From: Acidobacteriota bacterium
GTDB lineage: Bacteria; Acidobacteriota; Terriglobia; Acidiferrales; UBA7541
DNA: 38,092 nucleotides
NCBI GenBank assembly: GCA_003154775.1
Contig: PMES01000087.1
Span: 1 to 38,092 of the forward strand
Direction: 5' to 3'
Shown: piece by piece, positions 9,162 to 32,794 of the stretch
Numbering within the stretch: position 1 is the stretch's first letter
How the letters are laid out: every line of letters begins with the position of its first letter
Program-made: the position numbers and the translations under genes
Notes under the pieces: generated by a model
Database searches by the model: none
The model's input: only the letters and a program-made list of their open reading frames with translations
What the model was told of the DNA's origin: nothing

Positions 9162-10154
9162 TCAATGATAAAGAGGCGCGACAGCAATCGCACCAAGACC
9201 AAGCAGAAAGAAAAGAAACATCAGCGGGATAAACCGGCGTGACTCGGCGGGAGCATTGACGAACTCCCTCCAGATGAAGACGCCCCAGATGGCGGAAACC
9301 ATCGTCGCGCCCTGCCCCAGCGCATAGGAAATGGCCGGCCCGACCAATTGCGCGTGTGATGCCACGAAGTTGAAAGTTGTCCCGGTGCACCAGATCAGCC
9401 CGCCGACGACTCCCCATAAGTGATGGGCAGGCTTGGTGGCGAAGAACTGTCGTAGCGTGACAGGGGCAGCTCCGGTCAGAGGCTTGCGCATGAAGTAGTA
9501 GTTCAAAGGCAGAGCGCACAACACCGCGCCGATGCAGAAGAGAAAGGCCACGGCGTAAGGTCCCACTGCCGCCTTACCCGTGGTGGCTTTCACGATCAGC
9601 GGATAGAACGTCCCCATCAGGATGCCGCAGGCAATGCTGATCTTGATGCCCCGCGCGCTGACGGCTTTTTTCTCCACTTCCCGTTTCTTGTAGGCCATCG
9701 CGTCAAAGATGATCGCCAGCACCACCAGGACGATTCCGCTGAACAACAGGAACGGGTTCCCACGCGGGGAAATGAGGTAGTTCATCAGCGCGCCCACGAC
9801 GAGCGCCAATCCGATGCCGATCGGAAAGGCCACCGCCAGGCCCGCGATTTCGATAGCCGCCACCAGGAGCAGGTTTGCCACGTTGAAAATAATCCCCGCG
9901 AGCAGCGCGTAAAGGATGTGCCCGGTATCCGCGCCGCGTAAATCCGCAAGGAACGACAATCCGGCGCCTCCAAAACTTCCCAGCGTGAAACCCAATACGA
10001 GCGCGCCCAGGACCATGCCCACCAGATAATCCCAATAGAACAGGGGAAACGCGTACCCCGGGGTGAGTTTCATGGTGTTCGCCCAGGAGCCCCAACAAAC
10101 CATGCTGACGATCATGAAAAAAAGTGCTGCCGCGTACGCTTCCGGTTGGTACAT
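9162..10154 (-). CDS. GRP/RhaT-like sugar permease (DMT superfamily)
   Basis: A 330-residue integral membrane protein with about ten hydrophobic segments and short polar loops. The CWGSWANTMKL start and the internal glycine-rich helix FPIGIGLALVVGALMNYL resemble glucose/rhamnose porter and ureide-permease-like members of the drug/metabolite transporter superfamily. A cytoplasmic loop (AYKKREVEKKAVSARG) divides two five-helix halves. The start is supported by AGGAGA upstream of the ATG at 10152-10154. Its position next to the Lut and rhamnose genes suggests uptake of L-rhamnose or a related deoxy sugar, but the substrate is inferred from context only. The 187 bases before the Lut-side gene contain no gene I can support. 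Confidence 0.8.
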   Translation of the reverse strand: MYQPEAYAAALFFMIVSMVCWGSWANTMKLTPGYAFPLFYWDYLVGMVLGALVLGFTLGSFGGAGLSFLADLRGADTGHILYALLAGIIFNVANLLLVAAIEIAGLAVAFPIGIGLALVVGALMNYLISPRGNPFLLFSGIVLVVLAIIFDAMAYKKREVEKKAVSARGIKISIACGILMGTFYPLIVKATTGKAAVGPYAVAFLFCIGAVLCALPLNYYFMRKPLTGAAPVTLRQFFATKPAHHLWGVVGGLIWCTGTTFNFVASHAQLVGPAISYALGQGATMVSAIWGVFIWREFVNAPAESRRFIPLMFLFFLLGLGAIAVAPLYH

Positions 10155-10341: not shown

Positions 10342-11217
10342 TCACAACAATTTGGCAAGAAGTTCCACGGGATGCAGCACGGCACGGCCCGTTGCGCCTT
10401 GCAGTTGCTCGATGCAGGAGACGCCGCTGGCAAGCAGGGTGTGCGGGCCCATGGCGCTCTCGGCGGCCTTCCATTGTTCCACAAGCTCTTCGGACACGGC
10501 CTGGCTGACATCGTAGAAATCTTTTTTGTACCCGAAGCTTCCGGCCATCCCGCAGCATTCCACCTGCGAACAGGCGACTTCAAAGCCGAGCCGCCGCAGA
10601 AATTCGACCGTGATGGAAGGGTCGCTGACGGCGCGTTGCTGGCAATGTGCGTGGCAGAAGACCCTGGGACCCGGCGCGAACTTGCGAATGTCAAAAACCG
10701 CCCGCGGATCAATTCCCTGCTGCGCAAGATGCCGTGCGAGGAACTGCACCAGATCTAGCGTGGAATTCCGCAACTTTACGAAGGGCTCCGCCGGCAATAA
10801 TTTGCGATATTCGCGCAGGATCATTGCCAGGACGCTGGGCTCGACAACAAGCAACGGCCGCCCTGCTGAATTTTCGACCGCGAGGTAGTTGGAAAGAGCC
10901 TCCGCTTGCGCGCTTGCCGTTTCAATCATCCCTTGCGAGAGCGCTGCACGTCCGTCCGGCAGAGATTTCGTCAGACGCACGCGCACACCGGCAGCGCGCA
11001 GACACCGTATCGCGTCCCTGCCCCGCTCTGGCGCGCCGTAATTTGTAAACACATCCGCCAACACCAAAACCTCTCGGCCTGGCTGCGTATCTGGCTTCTC
11101 CGCCACTTCGTTGGCACAAATATCCACCCAGGTTTTCCTCGGAAATGGCGCAAGATGCCGCCGCCGGTCAATCCCAAAAGACTTCTCCAGGAACCAGCGC
11201 GCGCCGGGCACCTTCAA
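10342..11217 (-). CDS. lutA: LutA-like CCG-domain Fe-S protein (probable C-terminal half of a LutB-LutA fusion)
   Basis: A 291-residue cysteine-rich CCG-domain protein of the LutA/GlpC/HdrB type, the electron-transfer part of L-lactate oxidation. The second CCG unit is intact: C188-H-x-H-C192 (VFCHAHCQQ) and C221-C222-G (ECCGMAGSFG). The first unit seems degenerate: where fused relatives have CCGR there is P87-D-G-R90. The only start is a TTG (11215-11217) inside an 8-T tract, with no ribosome-binding site. The opening residues (VPGARWFLEKSFGIDRRR, then HLAPFPRKTW) match the linker found within fused Fe-S oxidoreductases rather than a real N-terminus. It is therefore probably made by -1 shifting from lutB, or the T tract carries a sequencing error. 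Confidence 0.82.
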   Translation of the reverse strand: MKVPGARWFLEKSFGIDRRRHLAPFPRKTWVDICANEVAEKPDTQPGREVLVLADVFTNYGAPERGRDAIRCLRAAGVRVRLTKSLPDGRAALSQGMIETASAQAEALSNYLAVENSAGRPLLVVEPSVLAMILREYRKLLPAEPFVKLRNSTLDLVQFLARHLAQQGIDPRAVFDIRKFAPGPRVFCHAHCQQRAVSDPSITVEFLRRLGFEVACSQVECCGMAGSFGYKKDFYDVSQAVSEELVEQWKAAESAMGPHTLLASGVSCIEQLQGATGRAVLHPVELLAKLL

Positions 11218-12590
11218 AAAAAATTCGACAATGGAGCGAAGAGCGTTCCCCAGCGAGCCGCGCGATCATAATGGGCAAAGAAGATTTGTTGCGCCGAAGC
11301 ATGTTCCAGCGGCGATGCACTCAGCAGCAGATGCATCGCTCGGGCTGCCAATGAAAGAGGAACCGACTGATTGAGCCGCGAGCGCAGCTCCACATTCAAA
11401 CCGGGAATATCGATGCGCACGGGACACTGCGGCACGCAGCGCGAGCAACCCGTGCAAAGATCGCTGAACCGCGCCAGCTTCAACTGGCCTGTCGTCGCCG
11501 CTTCCCACGTGGCGCCGATTCCGCCGGAATAGGTCGCTCCTCCAAACCCGTGCCCTCCCAGTACCTGAAAATTCGCGCAGGAATTCAGGCACGCGCTGCA
11601 GCGAATACAATAGAGCGCTTCTTTCAGTTGCGCATCCTGCGCCAAAGCCTCGCGCCCGTTATCCAGAATCACTAGATGAAATTCGCGTGTGGCCGGTCCC
11701 GCGCCGCGAAAATCGACGACCGGCACAGCGAGCGGAGGCCGGATCACGGACGTGTAGCTCGTCAGCGGCTGCCCCGTGGCGCTGGCCGCAAGAAGCTCGA
11801 TGAAGGGGGCAAATTCGCGGCGCGAGGGCACGATTTTTTCGAAACCCGACAGGGCGATGTGCAAAGGCGGCGCGATGCACGTCAAACGGATGTTCGCTTC
11901 GCTCTCCACCAACAGCAGGCTGCCGCAATCCGCGGAAACCAGATTGGCTCCCGTAATTCCCGCGTCCGCGGCCAGAAAGTCTTTGCGCAAACGTTCGCGG
12001 GCGAATCGCGTCAAATTCTCGCCGGTATCCAGCGGCAAATCGGTTTGAAATTTCCTGCGAAAGAGTGCGGTGATGCGTTCCCGCGAGTAGTGGATGGCGG
12101 GAGCGATGATGTGCGACGGCTGCTCGTCGGCCGCCTGCAGAATGAACTCCGCCAAATCCGTTTCCACCACGCGGATTCCGTCGCGCTGCAGCGCGCCGTT
12201 CAGGTGAATCTCTTCCGAGGTCATGCTCTTGCCCTTGACCAGGGAACGCACGCGATGCCGCTTGCAGACATCCTGAATGTACTGGCGCGCCTCCTGAGCA
12301 TCGCGCGCAAAAAAGAAATGGCCGCCGTTCCGCGTAACACTCTCCGAAAGCCGCTGAATGAGCGCCTTGCGATTGACCAGCGCATGCTCCTTGATGCGGC
12401 GCGCTTCGTCTTTCAGCGCATCGTAATCGGGCAGTGCGGCTGTGGCACGATAGCGATTGAGGTTGAAACTCCGCGTGTTGCGCCGCACCGCCGCGGATTC
12501 CGTATCGAGAGCGAGGCGAATGGCGCGCCGCAGGATCGCGCGCGACTCCTTCGCGGCAATCTCCCTCGGCGATGTCACCTGCTTCGGCAC
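11214..12590 (-). CDS. lutB: LutB-like lactate-utilisation Fe-S protein
   Basis: A 458-residue protein with an N-terminal LUD domain (KGKSMTSEEIHLNGAL, then VVETDLAEFILQ and ADCGSLLLVESEANIRL) and two 4Fe-4S motifs: C328, C331, C334, C338 (YCIRCSACLNSC) and C379, C382, C385, C389-P (LCTGCSRCVPQCP). LutABC proteins oxidise L-lactate to pyruvate. The GTG at 12588-12590 starts 3 bases after the lutC stop, indicating one operon. The protein stops soon after the second cluster (APLSNFF) within an 8-T run (A8 at 11216-11223 on the plus strand), without the usual C-terminal extension. That extension is found in the -1 frame, as described for the next gene. Confidence 0.9.
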   Translation of the reverse strand: MPKQVTSPREIAAKESRAILRRAIRLALDTESAAVRRNTRSFNLNRYRATAALPDYDALKDEARRIKEHALVNRKALIQRLSESVTRNGGHFFFARDAQEARQYIQDVCKRHRVRSLVKGKSMTSEEIHLNGALQRDGIRVVETDLAEFILQAADEQPSHIIAPAIHYSRERITALFRRKFQTDLPLDTGENLTRFARERLRKDFLAADAGITGANLVSADCGSLLLVESEANIRLTCIAPPLHIALSGFEKIVPSRREFAPFIELLAASATGQPLTSYTSVIRPPLAVPVVDFRGAGPATREFHLVILDNGREALAQDAQLKEALYCIRCSACLNSCANFQVLGGHGFGGATYSGGIGATWEAATTGQLKLARFSDLCTGCSRCVPQCPVRIDIPGLNVELRSRLNQSVPLSLAARAMHLLLSASPLEHASAQQIFFAHYDRAARWGTLFAPLSNFF

Positions 12591-12593
12591 GGT

Positions 12594-13175
12594 TCAGCAA
12601 AGCACCATGATGTGAAGCTCATGCGGCCCATGGACCCCGCGGACCAGCGGACCCATGTCCGCCGTGGCGCTTGGCCCGCTGATGAAGACGAAATTTCTGT
12701 GGTAGGTGGGCCGAGCAAATTGCTCGAGGCGAAAAAGATCCGCGGGCCGGAAAACAAGCCTGTCAATGTCCACCACAACGATGTGCAGGTGCGGCAGCAG
12801 GCTGACATAACCCGCGATATCGGCGTCAATGTCCACGCACACGGAACCCGTGCGCGCCACCGCGGCGAAGGCCTCCGTTACGCCCACGGGCGCCGAGCGA
12901 TAGTCGGCGGCGTTTGGGTTCCTGAGCACGCCTTCCTCCGATCGCAATGGTCGAAAATAGTCGGGAGAAAGATAGCGCGGCTCGGCAATAAGAATCGGGC
13001 GCTTGGCGGAGGCTCTGGCCAGCACCGCATCGCGCACCGCCTCCGGCGAGCGAGCCACCAATTCCATCGTGGCTCCCGTAACCGACACTTGCTCGCGAAA
13101 CTGATTAAGGTGGGATTGCGGCGCTGGAGAAACGAGATTCACGGGTTCACTTTGCCCATCGGTATTATGCATCAT
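12594..13175 (-). CDS. lutC: LutC-like LUD-domain protein
   Basis: A LUD-domain protein of about 193 residues, third member of the lactate-utilisation set and first gene of its operon. Diagnostic stretches are PVGVTEAFAAVARTGSVCVD and the C-terminal VFISGPSATADMG, followed by VRGVHGPHELHIMVL, which is typical of LutC (the SATADIE/GVHGP motif). I chose the ATG at 13173-13175 over the one at 13203-13205 because the latter sits one base after a TTATAA box (13207-13212) that could be the -10 element. No strong ribosome-binding site is visible for either. With intracellular lactate expected from rhamnose breakdown, no lactate permease is needed, and none is seen. Confidence 0.88.
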   Translation of the reverse strand: MMHNTDGQSEPVNLVSPAPQSHLNQFREQVSVTGATMELVARSPEAVRDAVLARASAKRPILIAEPRYLSPDYFRPLRSEEGVLRNPNAADYRSAPVGVTEAFAAVARTGSVCVDIDADIAGYVSLLPHLHIVVVDIDRLVFRPADLFRLEQFARPTYHRNFVFISGPSATADMGPLVRGVHGPHELHIMVLC

Positions 13176-13247
13176 CCACACTCTTGAGACGCAACCGGCA
13201 AACATCTTATAACGCCGTAGCCGAACAGCAGGCTCCCTTTTAATTAG

Positions 13248-13337: not shown

Positions 13338-14447
13338 GTGACGCGATCGACTAAAGCGATTTATCTTATTCCCATTCTTTCCAAGAGCCTGGATGTTCTG
13401 GAACTGTTGGAACAACACAAGGCTCCGCTGACCCTTGAGGAAATCCATCAACGCACACGGATCTCCAAGACGACCGTCTTTCGGATTCTGCGGACACTGG
13501 TGCACCGGGGCTACGTCTCGCGCCCGGAGGACGGACGCTATCGCCTGGTCAGCCGTCCGCGCAAGATGCGCTTCGGTTTTGGCGGGCAGTCAGGCGCGCT
13601 TCCCTTCTCCAATGCGGTTACGGAGAGCCTCAGAGCCGCCGCCATTGCCACCGGGATCGAACTGATCGTTCTTGACAATCAGTACAACGGGGAAATCGCC
13701 CGGCAGAACGCCGAAGAGTTCATCAAACAGCGTGTGGATCTGGTGATCGAGTTCCAGACTGATCGTTACGTCGCGCCCATTATCGCGGACCGTCTTGCCG
13801 CCGGCGGAATCCCGCTGATCGCCGTGGATATCCCTCACCCCAACGCGGTTTTCTTTGGCCTGGACAATTACCGCGCGGGACTGGAAGCGGGCGAACTTTT
13901 GGGCGCCTACGCTCAGAAGTTCTGGGGCGGGCGAGTGGATCTTGTCGTGGGCCTGGACCTCGCTAAGGCCGGCACGCTGGTGCAAAGCCGCATCACGGGG
14001 GCCTTTGAAGGCATTCGTTCGAGGATCAGCAACCTCCAGGACGACCAACTCATTCGTGTCGACGGCACCGGGTTGGAAGAGGAAAGCCACAAGGCCATGC
14101 ATGCCGTGCTGACAAAATACCGCAAGGCCAAGCACGTCCTGGTAGCGCCGAGCAACGATACCAGCGCCCTCGGCGCCCTGCACGCCGCCAGAGAATTGCG
14201 CCGCGACCATCATCTGGCGATCCTCAGCCATGACTGCATTCCCGCGGTTATGGAAGAGATGAAACGCAAGAATAGCCCTCTCATTGGCTCCATTTCGCAT
14301 GAAGTGGCCACCTACGGGCCGCGGCTCATTCAGTTGGGCCTGGCCCTTTTGAACGGCGAGAGCGTCCCTCCCTACAATTACGTCGAGCATCGCCTGGTCA
14401 GCCGTTTTAGCCGTCTGGTCGCCGATCGCGCCGCCCGGCCCTCTTGA
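13338..14447 (+). CDS. chimeric regulator: IclR-type HTH plus LacI-type sugar-binding domain
   Basis: A 369-residue protein with an unusual domain pairing. Residues about 10-65 are an IclR-type winged HTH (LIPILSKSLDVLELLEQHK, then TLEEIHQRTRISKTTVFRIL and LVHRGYVSRPEDGRYRL). Residues about 85-355 form a periplasmic-binding-protein type 1 fold as in LacI/RbsB (LIVLDNQYNGEIARQNAEEF, VDLVIEFQTD, GIPLIAVDIPHP, GAFEGIR, VLVAPSNDTSALGAL, GSISHE), instead of the GAF-like IclR effector domain. It has no signal peptide, so it should be a cytoplasmic sugar-responsive regulator. It is divergent from lutCBA and directly upstream of rhaI, which makes both likely targets. The GTG start at 13338 lacks a clear ribosome-binding site. 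Confidence 0.85.
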   Translation: MTRSTKAIYLIPILSKSLDVLELLEQHKAPLTLEEIHQRTRISKTTVFRILRTLVHRGYVSRPEDGRYRLVSRPRKMRFGFGGQSGALPFSNAVTESLRAAAIATGIELIVLDNQYNGEIARQNAEEFIKQRVDLVIEFQTDRYVAPIIADRLAAGGIPLIAVDIPHPNAVFFGLDNYRAGLEAGELLGAYAQKFWGGRVDLVVGLDLAKAGTLVQSRITGAFEGIRSRISNLQDDQLIRVDGTGLEEESHKAMHAVLTKYRKAKHVLVAPSNDTSALGALHAARELRRDHHLAILSHDCIPAVMEEMKRKNSPLIGSISHEVATYGPRLIQLGLALLNGESVPPYNYVEHRLVSRFSRLVADRAARPS

Positions 14448-14536: not shown

Positions 14537-14575
14537 TGATTGGAGTATCGTTGGGTCGGAACAGGAGATATTGCC

Positions 14576-15757
14576 ATGGCTCTTAACTCGCAGAATGTTC
14601 TCGCCGCTCTGGATTCATTCCGCATCGAGGTGCCGTCCTGGGGATTTGCCGACACAGGCACGCGCTTCGGCAAGTTCGTGCAGGACAGCGCCGCCTCCAC
14701 CCTGGAGGAAAAGTTCTGCGATGCCGGGCAGGTGCATTACTTTACGGGAGTGTGCCCCAGCGTTGCGCTGCACGTCCTCTGGGATCTCCCCGCAGGGATA
14801 GACCTGCGCGAAGTGGTCAAGCTCAGCGAAAAATATGGCGTCCGCGCTGGCTCCATCAATCCCAATGTTTTTCAGGACCAGGAGTACAAACACGGCTCCC
14901 TCGGCAATGAGCGGCCGGAGGTTCGCCAGCGCGCCCTGGACCACATTCTGGAGTCGGTCTCGCTGGCCAAGCAGTTAGGCTGCCGCGACCTGGCTCCCTG
15001 GCTGGCCGACGGCTCGAATTATCCCGGCACGGCGAATATTCGTCATCGCAAGCAGTGGATCGCCGAAGCCTTCCACAAGGTACACGACGCGCTCGGTCCG
15101 AGCCAGCGTCTCCTGGTGGAATACAAACCTTTTGAACCAGCCTTCTATCATTCGGACATCGGCGACTGGGGGATGGCGCTCTTGCTGGCACGCGCCGCCG
15201 GCCCGAAGGCTTTCGTGCTGGTAGATACCGGCCATCATTACCAGGCGCAAAACATCGAGCAGATCGTGGCCTGGCTGCTTAGCGAAAACATGCTGGGCGG
15301 CTTCCATTTCAACGACCGGCGCTATGCCGATGATGACCTCACCCTCGGGTCGATCGATCCGTATCAGATATTTCGCGTGTTCGCCGAAATCCGGCACTGG
15401 GAATGGGAGGCCCGCCAGCGGGCGGATATTGCCTACATGGTGGATCAGAGCCACAACTTGAAGAACAAAGTTGAGGCCATGATCCAGACGGTGATGACCG
15501 CTCAATTGCTCTATGCCAAGGCCGTTTTGATCGATCACGAAGCTTTGCAGAAAGCCCGCACGGAGCAGCGCCTGATTGACGCGGAGAACTGTTACAAGGA
15601 CGCCTACGAAACCGATTGCCGTCCGATTCTGCGGGATTGGCGCAAGAGCCACGGCCTGGCGGAGGATCCTTTGTTAGCGTTTCGCGCCAGCGGATACACG
15701 GAGCGGACTTCGCGCGAGCGGGGTGTTCGCAAAAAAGGGGCTTCCAGCTACGCCTGA
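14576..15757 (+). CDS. rhaI: L-rhamnose isomerase (RhaI type)
   Basis: A 393-residue TIM-barrel sugar isomerase of the Pseudomonas/Bacillus RhaI type, converting L-rhamnose to L-rhamnulose. Recognisable segments are IEVPSWGFADTGTRFGKF near the start, RAGSINPNVFQDQEYKHGS, LLVEYKPFEPAFYHSD, FVLVDTGHHYQAQNIE and GGFHFNDRRYADDDL. The Glu, Asp and His residues within the last four are the expected metal ligands. I place the start at the ATG at 14576 because AGGAGA lies just upstream, rather than at the in-frame ATG at 14540. It is followed 48 bases later by the bifunctional aldolase gene, so isomerase, aldolase/dehydrogenase and kinase are probably co-transcribed. Confidence 0.93.
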   Translation: MALNSQNVLAALDSFRIEVPSWGFADTGTRFGKFVQDSAASTLEEKFCDAGQVHYFTGVCPSVALHVLWDLPAGIDLREVVKLSEKYGVRAGSINPNVFQDQEYKHGSLGNERPEVRQRALDHILESVSLAKQLGCRDLAPWLADGSNYPGTANIRHRKQWIAEAFHKVHDALGPSQRLLVEYKPFEPAFYHSDIGDWGMALLLARAAGPKAFVLVDTGHHYQAQNIEQIVAWLLSENMLGGFHFNDRRYADDDLTLGSIDPYQIFRVFAEIRHWEWEARQRADIAYMVDQSHNLKNKVEAMIQTVMTAQLLYAKAVLIDHEALQKARTEQRLIDAENCYKDAYETDCRPILRDWRKSHGLAEDPLLAFRASGYTERTSRERGVRKKGASSYA

Positions 15758-15805
15758 GCTGCCCAGACTCCCTTCGGCGGCGCCCGCAGCGTGCATCGAG
15801 GAATC

Positions 15806-18004
15806 GTGAAACGTCTACGTTATCTCCAAGACGTGTGGGATACACGCGTCGCTTCGGGCTTGGATGAACCCGAACTGCTGCGCTACCGCTCGAATCTACT
15901 GGGTTCGGACCTGCGCATCACGAACTTTGGTGGCGGCAACACGAGTTCCAAAGTAAAGCAAAAGGACGCACTGAGCAGCGCTACCGTCGAAGTTCTTTGG
16001 GTCAAGGGGAGCGGCGGCGATCTCGGCAGCATTCAGCGCGCGGGTTTCGCCACTCTCTATCAGGAGAAGCTGCTCGGACTCGAGAAGCTCTATCGCGGCA
16101 TGCAGCACGAAGACGAGATGGTCGGCTACTACCCTCTCTGCACCTTCGGCCTGAACCCCACGGCCGCTTCCATTGATACGCCGCTGCACGGCCTGCTTCC
16201 GTATGCCCACATCGACCACCTGCATCCGGATTGGGGCATCGCGCTGGCCGCTTCCGCAAACGGCAAAGAGCGCCTGGCGGAGTTCAACCAGAAGTATGGC
16301 CACAGACTCGTGTGGATTCCCTGGCTGCGGCCGGGCTTTGAGCTGGGCCGATTGATTCGCGACGTTGTTCAGCAGAATCCCAAAGCCGATGGCATCGTGC
16401 TCGGCGGCCACGGACTATTCACCTGGGGTGAAACGCAGCGCACTTGCTATGAGAACACGCTTACCGTGATTGACGATCTGGGCGAGTTCGTTCTCGGCTA
16501 TGTCGAAAAGGCCGGCGATTCCCTTTTTGCTGGAGCGCAATTCACGCCGCGCGACGATCGGCAGCAGCTCGCCGTTGAGCTGCTCCCCGCGCTTCGCGGC
16601 CGCCTTTGCGCCAAAAACAAATTGATTGCGCACTATTCCGATCTGCCTGAGGTGCTGCGCTTCGTTAATTCGCGCGATGCGGCGGCGCTGGCGCGGCTCG
16701 GTACCAGTTGCCCGGACCACTTCATCCGCACGAAGATACGCCCCTTGCTGATTCCCTGGCAGCCCGGCGGCGATGTGCCTGCTCTGTTCGCAGCGCTGGA
16801 TGAGAGTTTGACGGCCTATCGCAAGGACTACGAAGCGTACTACCACAAATTCGCCGCTGCCGATTCGCCGGCCTTGCGCGATGCTAACCCCACGGTCGTG
16901 CTCGTTCCCGGCGTCGGCATGTTCAGCTTTGGAAAGAGCAAGACCGAAGCACGCATCACCGGCGAGTTCTACACCAACGCGATTCACGTGATGGAAGGCG
17001 CCACCTCTCTCGGCGATGGCCGCGCGCCTTCTACTCTTCCGCAAGCCGGCGTGGCCGCGCCTTCGGAAGCGTTCGCGGTGCACAACAATTACGTCGCCCT
17101 GCCGCAATCCGAAGCGTTTCGCATTGAATACTGGCAGCTTGAAGAAGCCAAGCTGCGCCGCCAGCCACCGGAAAAGGAATTTGCGCGTCAGGTGGTGATC
17201 GTTGTGGGCGGAGCCAACGGAATCGGGCGCGCCACTGCCGAAGCCGCCGCACAACGCGGAGCGCACGTGGTGATCGCGGATCGTGACGCGGAAACAGCGA
17301 AAGAGGCCGCCGCCCAAGTGGCGCGTTCCGCCGGAAAAGAAGCAAGCCACGCCGCGACGGTGGACATTCGCGATCGCGCATCGATCCGGCGCCTCCTGAA
17401 AGAAGTCGTGGCGCACTTTGGCGGCTTCGATGTGCTGGTCAACACCGCCGCGATGTTTGCGTCGTCACCCGATGGCACGGTGAGCGATGAGCAGTGGCGC
17501 ACCACCCTCGACCTAAACGTGGTCGCCAACCATCTGTTGGTGGACGAAGCGCGGCCCATCCTCGCAAAGCAGAATCTTCCGGCGTCGATTGTCCTGACGA
17601 GTTCCGCGAATGCCGTGGTCCCCAAGCACGGCAGTGAGGCCTACGACGTCAGCAAAGCCGCACTGAGCCATCTTGTGCGCGAGTTGGCCATCTCTCTCTC
17701 GCCAAACGTCCGCGTCAATGGAATCAGCCCCGCCACCGTCGTGAAGGGCTCGACGATGTTCCCCCGCGATCGCGTCATCGCCTCGCTGACCAAGTACAAG
17801 ATGGCGTTTGATCCCGCGCAGAGCATTGAGGAATTGCGCGATTTGCTCAGCCTTTTTTACGCGAAGCGCACTTTGACGCACGCCGCGATTGATCCGGATG
17901 ATTGCGCCAAAGCAATTCTCTTTCTGGCAAGTCCCAGCGCCCGCTGTACGACGGGCCATTTGTTCCCCGTGGACGGCGGCTTGAGCGAAGCTTTCCTCCG
18001 ATGA
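15806..18004 (+). CDS. rhaE: bifunctional rhamnulose-1-phosphate aldolase / L-lactaldehyde dehydrogenase
   Basis: A 732-residue fusion of a class II aldolase and a short-chain dehydrogenase, as in the RhaE/RhaEW family. The aldolase half has ITNFGGGNTSSK, the zinc ligands in HIDHLH (H135, H138/H140 region) and GGHGLF (H202). The SDR half starts about residue 460 with the nucleotide-binding GGANGIG (468-474) and has catalytic S599/S600, Y613 and K617 (YDVSK). It should cleave rhamnulose-1-phosphate to DHAP and L-lactaldehyde and oxidise the aldehyde to L-lactate without releasing it far. I start at the GTG at 15806 (MKRLRYLQDVW, typical of the family, with GAGG just upstream), not at 15791. 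Its stop overlaps the next start (ATGA). Confidence 0.92.
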   Translation: MKRLRYLQDVWDTRVASGLDEPELLRYRSNLLGSDLRITNFGGGNTSSKVKQKDALSSATVEVLWVKGSGGDLGSIQRAGFATLYQEKLLGLEKLYRGMQHEDEMVGYYPLCTFGLNPTAASIDTPLHGLLPYAHIDHLHPDWGIALAASANGKERLAEFNQKYGHRLVWIPWLRPGFELGRLIRDVVQQNPKADGIVLGGHGLFTWGETQRTCYENTLTVIDDLGEFVLGYVEKAGDSLFAGAQFTPRDDRQQLAVELLPALRGRLCAKNKLIAHYSDLPEVLRFVNSRDAAALARLGTSCPDHFIRTKIRPLLIPWQPGGDVPALFAALDESLTAYRKDYEAYYHKFAAADSPALRDANPTVVLVPGVGMFSFGKSKTEARITGEFYTNAIHVMEGATSLGDGRAPSTLPQAGVAAPSEAFAVHNNYVALPQSEAFRIEYWQLEEAKLRRQPPEKEFARQVVIVVGGANGIGRATAEAAAQRGAHVVIADRDAETAKEAAAQVARSAGKEASHAATVDIRDRASIRRLLKEVVAHFGGFDVLVNTAAMFASSPDGTVSDEQWRTTLDLNVVANHLLVDEARPILAKQNLPASIVLTSSANAVVPKHGSEAYDVSKAALSHLVRELAISLSPNVRVNGISPATVVKGSTMFPRDRVIASLTKYKMAFDPAQSIEELRDLLSLFYAKRTLTHAAIDPDDCAKAILFLASPSARCTTGHLFPVDGGLSEAFLR

Positions 18005-19461
18005 ATGATTTCTCCTCCGGCTCCGGAACAAAGCCACGCCGCGTGGTTGCCATCGACCTCGGTGCAGAAAGCTGCCGCGTCTCCTTGCTGAACTGGCAGC
18101 CCCGGGGCGCGACTCTGCGGATCGTGCACCGCTTCCACAATGGCCCGCACGAGCGCGAGGGACATCTTTATTGGGACATCTCCCGCCTGCGCGAGGGTCT
18201 TCTCGAAGGCCTGCGCCTTGCCGCCCGTGAAGCCTCCGGTCCGATCGATTCCATCGGCGTGGCCGGCTGGGCCGTTGACTATGTGCGCGCGGATGGCAAC
18301 TACCAGCCCCTGGAGGATCCCTTCTGCTATCGCGATCCACGCACGGAACAAATCCCGGTGCAATTCTGGAAAACACTTCCCGCAGAGCGCCTTTACGCCA
18401 TCACCGGCGTTCAAATGCTGCGCTTTAACACGCTGTACCAGCTCATAGCGGATCACCATGCCGGCCTGCCCGATGGCGCGTGCTGGCTGAATTTGCCGGA
18501 ATACATTCTTTGCAGTCTTGGCGGGCGTCCCGTCTCGGAGTTCACGCTGGCGACGCACACGCAACTCGTCAGTGCGACTGATCGCGCTTGGTCGCCAGAG
18601 ATCTTTCAAGCGGCAGGCCTTGACCAGGGCAAGGCGCCGGAAGTCGTTCCTCCCGGCACCATCGTCGGCCAAGTCACGGGAGAACTCGCGCAACTCCCCG
18701 CATTCCGAGACACTCAACTGATCGCACCCTCCTGCCACGATACGGGCTCGGCCGTCGCGGGCATTCCGCACTCCGGTGACGATTGCGCGTTCATCAGTTC
18801 CGGAACATGGTCGCTTGTGGGCACAGTCCTCGATCATCCCTGCCTCAGCGATGCGGCCTTCAAACAGAACATCAGCAACGAAGGTGGCCTCGAGGGCAGC
18901 TCGCGTTTCCTGAAAAACGTCAACGGCATGTGGCTGATTGAAGAATCTCTGCGCCACTGGCACTCTCAGGGCAAGGACTGGAGCGTTGCTTCGCTCATCG
19001 AGGCTTGCCGCTCGCTTCCCGCGCCAAAGGAATTTCTCGATGTGGATCATTCCAAGTTGCTTCTCAGCGGACACCTGCCGCAGCGCATCAACTCGGTGTT
19101 GAAACTTTCGGGGCACGCGCCGCTGCCGGAAAACCCCGAGGCGGCCCCGCAGTTTGCCAACTTGATTTTTCACAGCTTGGCCGCGCGCTACACCGAGGTT
19201 CTGCGCATGATCAGCGAAGTGGCCGGCAAGAAATTCCGGAGCGTCTATGTCGTCGGCGGCGGTAACCGCAATACTTTTCTTAACCAACTCTTGCAGGAGC
19301 GCTCGGGGCTGGAGGTCATCCGGGGTCCCGTGGAGTGCTCCACGATCGGCAATGCCGCCATCCAACTTGCGGCGCTTGAAGGGAAAACGGGCTCGAATTT
19401 TGGCGTTTCGCGCGCCGCGGTTGCCGAATGGAGCCGCCGCTTGGCTGCGCTTGAGGGCTGA
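18001..19461 (+). CDS. rhaB: rhamnulokinase
   Basis: A 486-residue FGGY-family sugar kinase. Phosphate-1 motif VVAIDLGAESCRVSL is at residues 15-29, WAVDYVRADG is a typical RhaB sugar-site element, and SSGTWSLVGT and VVGGGNRNTFLNQLLQ are the later adenosine-binding motifs of the fold. It phosphorylates L-rhamnulose to rhamnulose-1-phosphate for the aldolase encoded just upstream. The ATG at 18001 overlaps the aldolase stop (ATGA), so translation is coupled. The 87 bases to the convergent dehydratase gene show no feature I can support. Confidence 0.93.
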   Translation: MNDFSSGSGTKPRRVVAIDLGAESCRVSLLNWQPRGATLRIVHRFHNGPHEREGHLYWDISRLREGLLEGLRLAAREASGPIDSIGVAGWAVDYVRADGNYQPLEDPFCYRDPRTEQIPVQFWKTLPAERLYAITGVQMLRFNTLYQLIADHHAGLPDGACWLNLPEYILCSLGGRPVSEFTLATHTQLVSATDRAWSPEIFQAAGLDQGKAPEVVPPGTIVGQVTGELAQLPAFRDTQLIAPSCHDTGSAVAGIPHSGDDCAFISSGTWSLVGTVLDHPCLSDAAFKQNISNEGGLEGSSRFLKNVNGMWLIEESLRHWHSQGKDWSVASLIEACRSLPAPKEFLDVDHSKLLLSGHLPQRINSVLKLSGHAPLPENPEAAPQFANLIFHSLAARYTEVLRMISEVAGKKFRSVYVVGGGNRNTFLNQLLQERSGLEVIRGPVECSTIGNAAIQLAALEGKTGSNFGVSRAAVAEWSRRLAALEG

Positions 19462-26574: not shown

Positions 26575-26781
26575 GAAATTCCTCGGTTGAATTGTACGTA
26601 GAACTGCACAGGGCTCGCCTGTCCAGTTTCCAGGCCGTAGCCCAAACGTTTCATTTTGTAGGAAGCGCCACGGATATGCAAACAAAAACGCTGGCGCGCG
26701 CGAGCCTTTCCTTGCTTTAGGGCTCTCCGGTTCGACTGCCGAATCATCTCGTCAAGTAACCGGCTTCTCGCTGTTACCGCT

Positions 26782-27000
26782 TCATTCCCCTTGTTTCCAC
26801 GCCCCTGCCAGTTCCAGGTCCAGTTGCACGGCGGGCTTCACCTTCAGCAGCCACTTGCTGGGGTCCTTCAAGCCCCACTGGATGTAAGGCACCTCGAACT
26901 TCGCCGTGCCTTGCCATTTACCGCTGCCCAACTGAGCATGTACCGGAACGGTCAGTTCGTGCTCGCTTCCATGCAGCAGGAAGACCCCGTGCAACTGCAC
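26782..27000 (-). pseudogene. YceI-family C-terminal fragment
   Basis: The 72-residue frame VQLHGVFLLHGSEHELTVPV, followed by FEVPYIQWGLKDPSKWLLKVKPAVQLDLEL, is the C-terminal half of a YceI-type lipid-binding protein. A normal member has about 100 more residues before it. Upstream to about 27180 the matching N-terminal part is not found in one frame. A VTSWPTQVEGRVGGLGEF stretch in another frame (about 27015-27070) may be its continuation, which would require a frameshift. There is no plausible start with a ribosome-binding site. The 207 bases between this fragment and the inositol-phosphate synthase start (26575-26781) hold nothing else I can identify. Confidence 0.55.
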
Positions 27001-27327
27001 ATCGGAATTCCCCGAGGCCGCCGACCCTGCCTTCCACCTGCGTGGGCCAGGAAGTCACGCGCGTCGATCAACGCGAAGTTCTCACTATCGCTCAGACACG
27101 CAATCTGGCGCGGGAAGGGGCTCCCTTGTATTCATAATCTGCGCTTATTTCCCATAGCATTTCTATTAATTTGACTCATCCCCCTCTTTCCTTCAACCTA
27201 GAGACTGTCTGGGGGCGTACGCGTTGTCGCGTTTCACCTCGCCGATTTTTGTGTCGTCTGCATTCCTGGGCTACCGGACGACGCGCCTCGTGCCGGGAAA
27301 CTGCTTTGCGGTCTTTTCCGCGGGCGC

Positions 27328-31657: not shown

Positions 31658-32794
<1,137 letters not shown>

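Follow-up and report, generated by a model that had tools for sequence, protein, structure and literature searches.

A fused lut gene in a rhamnose/lactate gene cluster of an Acidobacteriota bacterium is very probably broken by a one-base change in the length of a T run

Introduction

In the usual lutABC operon, LutA and LutB are encoded as separate proteins (PMC3924224). A fused LutB-LutA-like form is represented by LdhH (NF045670, 706 positions), the large subunit of a quinone L-lactate dehydrogenase, in which a LUD domain, a 4Fe-4S domain, and a LutA-like part follow one another. Lactate oxidation has also been linked to the use of rhamnose: the bifunctional enzyme RhaEW is reported to convert rhamnulose-1-phosphate to L-lactate and DHAP, and some of the genomes that encode it carry lldD or lldEFG in the rhamnose regulon, by which the route is extended to pyruvate (PMC3870299). 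Damaged lutB genes have been described as well. In Deinococcus radiodurans, lutB (DR_1908) is frameshifted in one genome sequence, for which poor sequence was suspected (PMC3924224), and the frameshift is missing in another, resequenced strain, whose frame is reported as intact (PMC11219805); in strains of P. freudenreichii, lutB mutations that abolish the use of L-lactate have been reported (PMC12285252).

Here, we describe a lut locus on contig PMES01000087.1 of an Acidobacteriota genome (assembly GCA_003154775.1); the whole stretch of 38,092 bases that was analysed is referred to as the window. As in the lutABC and lldEFG operons, LutA-, LutB-, and LutC-like parts adjoin at this locus; unlike in those operons, LutA and LutB are fused in the relatives that we found, and in the window they are split by one base. 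The locus resembles DR_1908 in being a lut frame broken in one genome sequence and differs from it in that the comparison covers one sequence of the species, that of the window, where D. radiodurans has a second, resequenced strain with an intact frame. With dnaX-type programmed frameshift genes it has in common a homopolymer at the frame transition, but the lut site is unconserved and no stimulator was found.

Results

The two lut frames lie on the reverse strand of the window (10342-12590, −). Directly upstream is a gene for a LutC-like LUD protein (12594-13205, −; PF02589, 55.4 bits), and downstream is a gene for a RhaT/ureide-permease-like transporter (9162-10154, −), which scores over the cut-off for PF07168 and PF06800 and under it for TIGR00776. 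A divergent regulator gene (13338-14447, +) encodes an IclR-type HTH (PF09339) joined to a periplasmic-binding-protein sensor domain (PF13407), a pairing that seems to be uncommon. Beyond it, on the same strand, are genes for an L-rhamnose isomerase-like protein (14540-15757, +; TIGR02635, 480.9 bits, cut-off 531), a bifunctional rhamnulose-1-phosphate aldolase/dehydrogenase (15791-18004, +; NF006189, 975.1 bits, cut-off 634), and a rhamnulokinase-like protein (17902-19461, +; TIGR02627, 348.6 bits, cut-off 528). As listed, the last two open reading frames (ORFs) share about 100 bases, and the kinase probably starts further in. No LUD gene was found in the genome besides the two in the window. 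Among 11 related loci (L031-L041) with flanks of about 4 kb or less, a lutC match is present upstream in all 11, one of them partial, and the regulator, rhaI, and the transporter stand beside the lut genes in the closest relative (L031) only. The fused iron-sulphur enzyme probably oxidises lactate, and its likely role in this setting is the oxidation of rhamnose-derived L-lactate.

The upstream, LutB-like half runs for 458 aa to a TGA stop codon (11214-12590, −) and contains a LUD domain, which is over the gathering score (PF02589, 133.5 bits, cut-off 22.6), and a 4Fe-4S dicluster domain (PF13183, 41.5 bits). For TIGR00273 (LutB/LldF) it scores 346.9 bits, below the cut-off of 444.8, as do three relatives (341.2, 341.5, and 342.8 bits). 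The LutA-like half (10342-11217, −) has 291 codons when counted from a TTG, lies in the −1 frame, matches the C-terminal part of NF045670, and is related to GlpC (NF008369, 121.9 bits, under the cut-off). The two halves score 370.4 and 32.5 bits for NF045670, missing its cut-off of 800. Three of the three fused relatives scanned have LdhH as their top NCBIfam match; these relatives are here termed LdhH-like and not LdhH, because their scores of 393.5, 437.2, and 412 bits stay under the same cut-off. Their LutA-like part further differs from LdhH in its lack of a Pfam CCG match: at a threshold of 0.001, PF02754 (CCG) matches neither the LutA-like half of the window nor any of the four fused relatives scanned (L031, L032, L040, and L041), and the LutA-like half of the window has no Pfam match of any kind. 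A search of the genome itself for CCG domains returned two other genes and nothing at the LutA-like half. One CCG-type motif is kept in this half (VECCGMAGSFGY; 10342-11217, −), and the first seems to be missing. Together, the two frames correspond to one naturally fused LUD/4Fe-4S/LutA-like protein, of which each encodes a half.

By reading the assembly directly, we confirmed a run of eight T (T8) and the change between the LutB-like and LutA-like frames. The run occupies 11216-11223 on the coding strand (−; A8 on the + strand). As a sequence-only reading of this DNA had stated, the LutB-like frame ends at T8 (...APLSNFF*), with its TGA at 11216-11214, and the LutA-like frame (ORF 10342-11217, −) is −1 relative to it; the same reading placed the tract at 11214-11223, of which T8 itself stands and positions 11214-11215 merely finish the stop codon. 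The phase of T8 is right for a −1 shift. It is the only homopolymer of at least eight bases, of any base, in the window; across 603 kb of the genome, in which the window is counted, such runs have eight bases in four cases and nine in three. The junction reads TTTTTTTT in the window and TTTCTTTTC in the closest relative; the stretch in the window is all T where the relative has two C, and it is one base shorter.

Relatives were collected with the LutA half as the query from a genome collection (11 loci), from 61 genomes including its own, and from 396 genomes of the phylum at E 1e-40 or better, and by a DNA search of 36 genomes of the genus. Together, these searches gave 13 distinct genes with adjoining LutB and LutA halves (L031-L041, L048, and L049), a count that leaves out the window (L001), two duplicates with identical coordinates and junctions (L002 of L031 and L003 of L041), weaker LutA matches with no LutB half in the stretches compared, and L024, which is a LutB match only. 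All 13 are single open frames that measure 750-816 aa between stops and contain no internal stop; the −1 offset occurs in none of the 13, and none has a junction run of six or more. The closest relative, L031, from the genome of Candidatus Acidiferrum typicum (G035), has identities of 95.0% (LutB half) and 90.1% (LutA half) to the window. It encodes the same residues in a single frame, with the T run interrupted, and when its coding DNA is aligned to that of the window, the sole internal gap is the T run. The linker that had been predicted by crossing the two frames agrees with that of fused L031 in all but one residue (SNFFSKVPGARWFLEKSFGI). A check for conservation of the tract and the offset in aligned homologues had been proposed, and its outcome is negative: since L031 has TTTCTTTTC in place of the TTTTTTTT of the window, conservation is lacking for the T run and for the −1 offset alike, and the other junctions compared have unrelated codons at the position of the run. 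The gene itself (10342-12590, −) is patchy in the genus, where 2 of the 35 other genomes (G035 and G005) match over much of its length and two further matches are 29 and 46 bases long.

Both halves have been under purifying selection since the divergence from the closest relative, with dN/dS values against G035 of 0.10 for the LutB half and 0.15 for the LutA half. When 12 outgroup rows were used to place the amino-acid differences between the two genomes, those of the LutA half fell to the window in 10 cases and to G035 in 9, with 9 undecided, and those of the LutB half fell to the window in 8 and to G035 in 5, with 10 undecided. Had the LutA half been neutral over half of the window branch, about 56 changes would be expected, and at most 19 were counted (Poisson probability about 1e-8); neutrality for a fifth of the branch gives P = 0.015, and for one tenth or less it is still compatible with the counts. 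Moreover, of 82 columns without variation among the other rows, the LutA half of the window retains 81. An old pseudogene is ruled out by the lack of excess change in the LutA half on the window branch and by these retained columns. Because there is no such excess, the break is recent, is an artefact, or leaves a product that is still made; we infer that it is recent or artefactual, and conserved LutA sequence past the break would be equally expected from rescue by slippage or re-initiation.

Synteny with G035 extends over about 34 kb of the window, at 87-95% identity. Of the 29 gaps in it, just one, that of the T run, changes the frame and can be placed well within a supported gene. Another five gaps, of one base each (14556; 22966; 23768, 23806, and 23892), fall within the first 45 or so codons of listed ORFs, whose true start is uncertain, and the remaining gaps are multiples of three, intergenic, or in ORFs taken as spurious. 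We also counted ORFs of the relative that switch frame in this genome, over the window and three further pieces (about 51 kb). At tighter settings (at least 120 aa and at least 82% identity, spurious antisense ORFs included), 2 of 227 do so, namely the lut gene and an ORF at window 26598-27022 that is taken as spurious, and no ORF of the relative switches frame in the three further pieces. With the settings relaxed to 150 aa and 70% identity, seven ORFs of the relative and two of the window switch frame, and those other than the lut gene are taken as spurious or intergenic; a switch near 31685 involves ORFs that are antisense to better-supported genes and have no Pfam matches. In the reverse direction, 6 of 182 ORFs of this genome switch frame in G035, one upstream of lutC, four in L074, and one in L092; the switches at L074 1109-2497 and 4020-6192 and at L092 14765-15604 would reflect spurious ORFs or indels on the side of the relative.

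A general homopolymer error in the assembly is unsupported, as all nine of the runs of seven that are clearly coding on both sides stay in frame. This test is weak because 42 of the 53 runs of seven scored were ambiguous (two more lay at edges), as were all of the longer runs, four with eight bases and three with nine; T8 is among them, so the scorer would miss the lut break itself. With short reads, a consensus error in a run of just eight T would be unusual, a point that applies only if short reads were used.

The first start codon of the LutA-like frame is the TTG at 11217-11215, upstream of which 16 further codons are open and contain no ATG, GTG, or TTG. The sequence-only reading was right that no ribosome-binding site precedes this TTG and wrong to call it the sole possible start, as GTG 11211 and GTG 11127 are also available. 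A settled, real break, after which LutA is made as a separate protein as in the usual lut operons, could draw on two features here. The TTG and the TGA share bases in TTGA, an overlap of stop and start of the kind found in coupled genes, at which translation could re-initiate, and the GTG at 11125-11127 (−), a candidate internal start from which the LutA-like protein would be 30 residues shorter, has an AGGA eight bases upstream. The undecayed LutA half and the separate LutA and LutB of the usual lutABC operon (PMC3924224) are likewise in keeping with such a fission. However, TTG is weak as a start and has no ribosome site before it, the case is a single one, and the AGGA/GTG is also present in the fused relative; it is therefore no sign of a separate gene, and nothing new has evolved for a separate LutA. 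We regard fission of the gene as quite unlikely.

Programmed slippage, in which RNA polymerase or the ribosome would slip on T8 at a set rate and so yield both a short LutB-like protein and a LutB-LutA fusion, is in agreement with the phase of the run and with a LutA half that still appears to be selected. It also has precedents: E. coli RNA polymerase was reported to rescue the frame by insertion at rates of 5% and 10% at T7/T8, with none reported there for shorter T runs (PMC6260861), programmed transcriptional realignment is often found on homopolymers of at least eight bases (PMC3711429), and productive slippage at eight A has been suggested for some IS elements (PMC1088944). We nevertheless found it unsupported, for want of conservation and of structure beyond shuffles. 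None of the 13 relatives shares the offset, and the closest has an interrupted run and a single frame. The RNA after the run folds no better than shuffled sequence (84 bases, z −0.53, 55 of 200 shuffles as good; 50 bases, z −0.27, 72 of 200; pseudoknots are outside the model). Unstimulated ribosomal heptamers, where positive, reached just 2.1- to 10-fold over a background of about 0.055%, a range taken here for such heptamers as a group and not for the all-U one in particular (PMC4066793). Programmed frame transitions have been defined by their occurrence in five or more genes and by a conserved site (PMC3711429); the lut gene is one case, with the transition in none of the 13 relatives, and its slippery site is not conserved. 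No report of slippage in a lut or lld gene was found among the literature matches listed. Of the original interpretation, the halves of a natural fusion stand, and the slippage site that makes two products is unsupported, with the offset absent from the relatives, no conserved run, and no structure beyond shuffles; we consider a programmed site very unlikely. A recent slippage site selected in this lineage only, so that one Acidiferrum species would make a free LutB-like protein beside the LutB-LutA fusion and its relatives the fusion only, is no more probable than that. Least probable of all is phase variation, with a run length that flips among cells and turns the fusion reversibly on and off: switches of this kind usually act on homopolymers, and the frame change does sit on one, but eight is short for a contingency tract, the run of the closest relative is interrupted, and a run is absent at this place from the other relatives.

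Discussion

The window very probably holds one fused lut gene in a rhamnose/lactate cluster, the frame of which has been broken by a one-base change in the length of a T run. The shortening would be a recent replication-slippage mutation, perhaps present in part of the population, or a consensus error; in appearance, the break at T8 is a recent slip of the ordinary kind or an error in the sequence, and not a built-in switch. In a study of frame transitions, singleton frameshifts validated by BLASTp were expected to be sequencing errors and not genuine indels (PMC3711429). If T8 is real, some full-length protein would leak through ordinary, unprogrammed slippage; given the rescue seen at T7/T8 in E. 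coli, a real T8 probably leaks the fusion, provided that the acidobacterial polymerase behaves alike. The enzyme would oxidise L-lactate derived from L-rhamnose.

In a draft genome, one indel in a homopolymer can mimic programmed recoding, and comparison with relatives sorts such cases. An annotation that took this locus at face value would show a pseudogene or a pair of genes, and the genome, in which no other lut genes were found, would seem to have an incomplete set. A real break would represent a recent loss or a leaky expression of lactate oxidation in what is probably a rhamnose-using acidobacterium.
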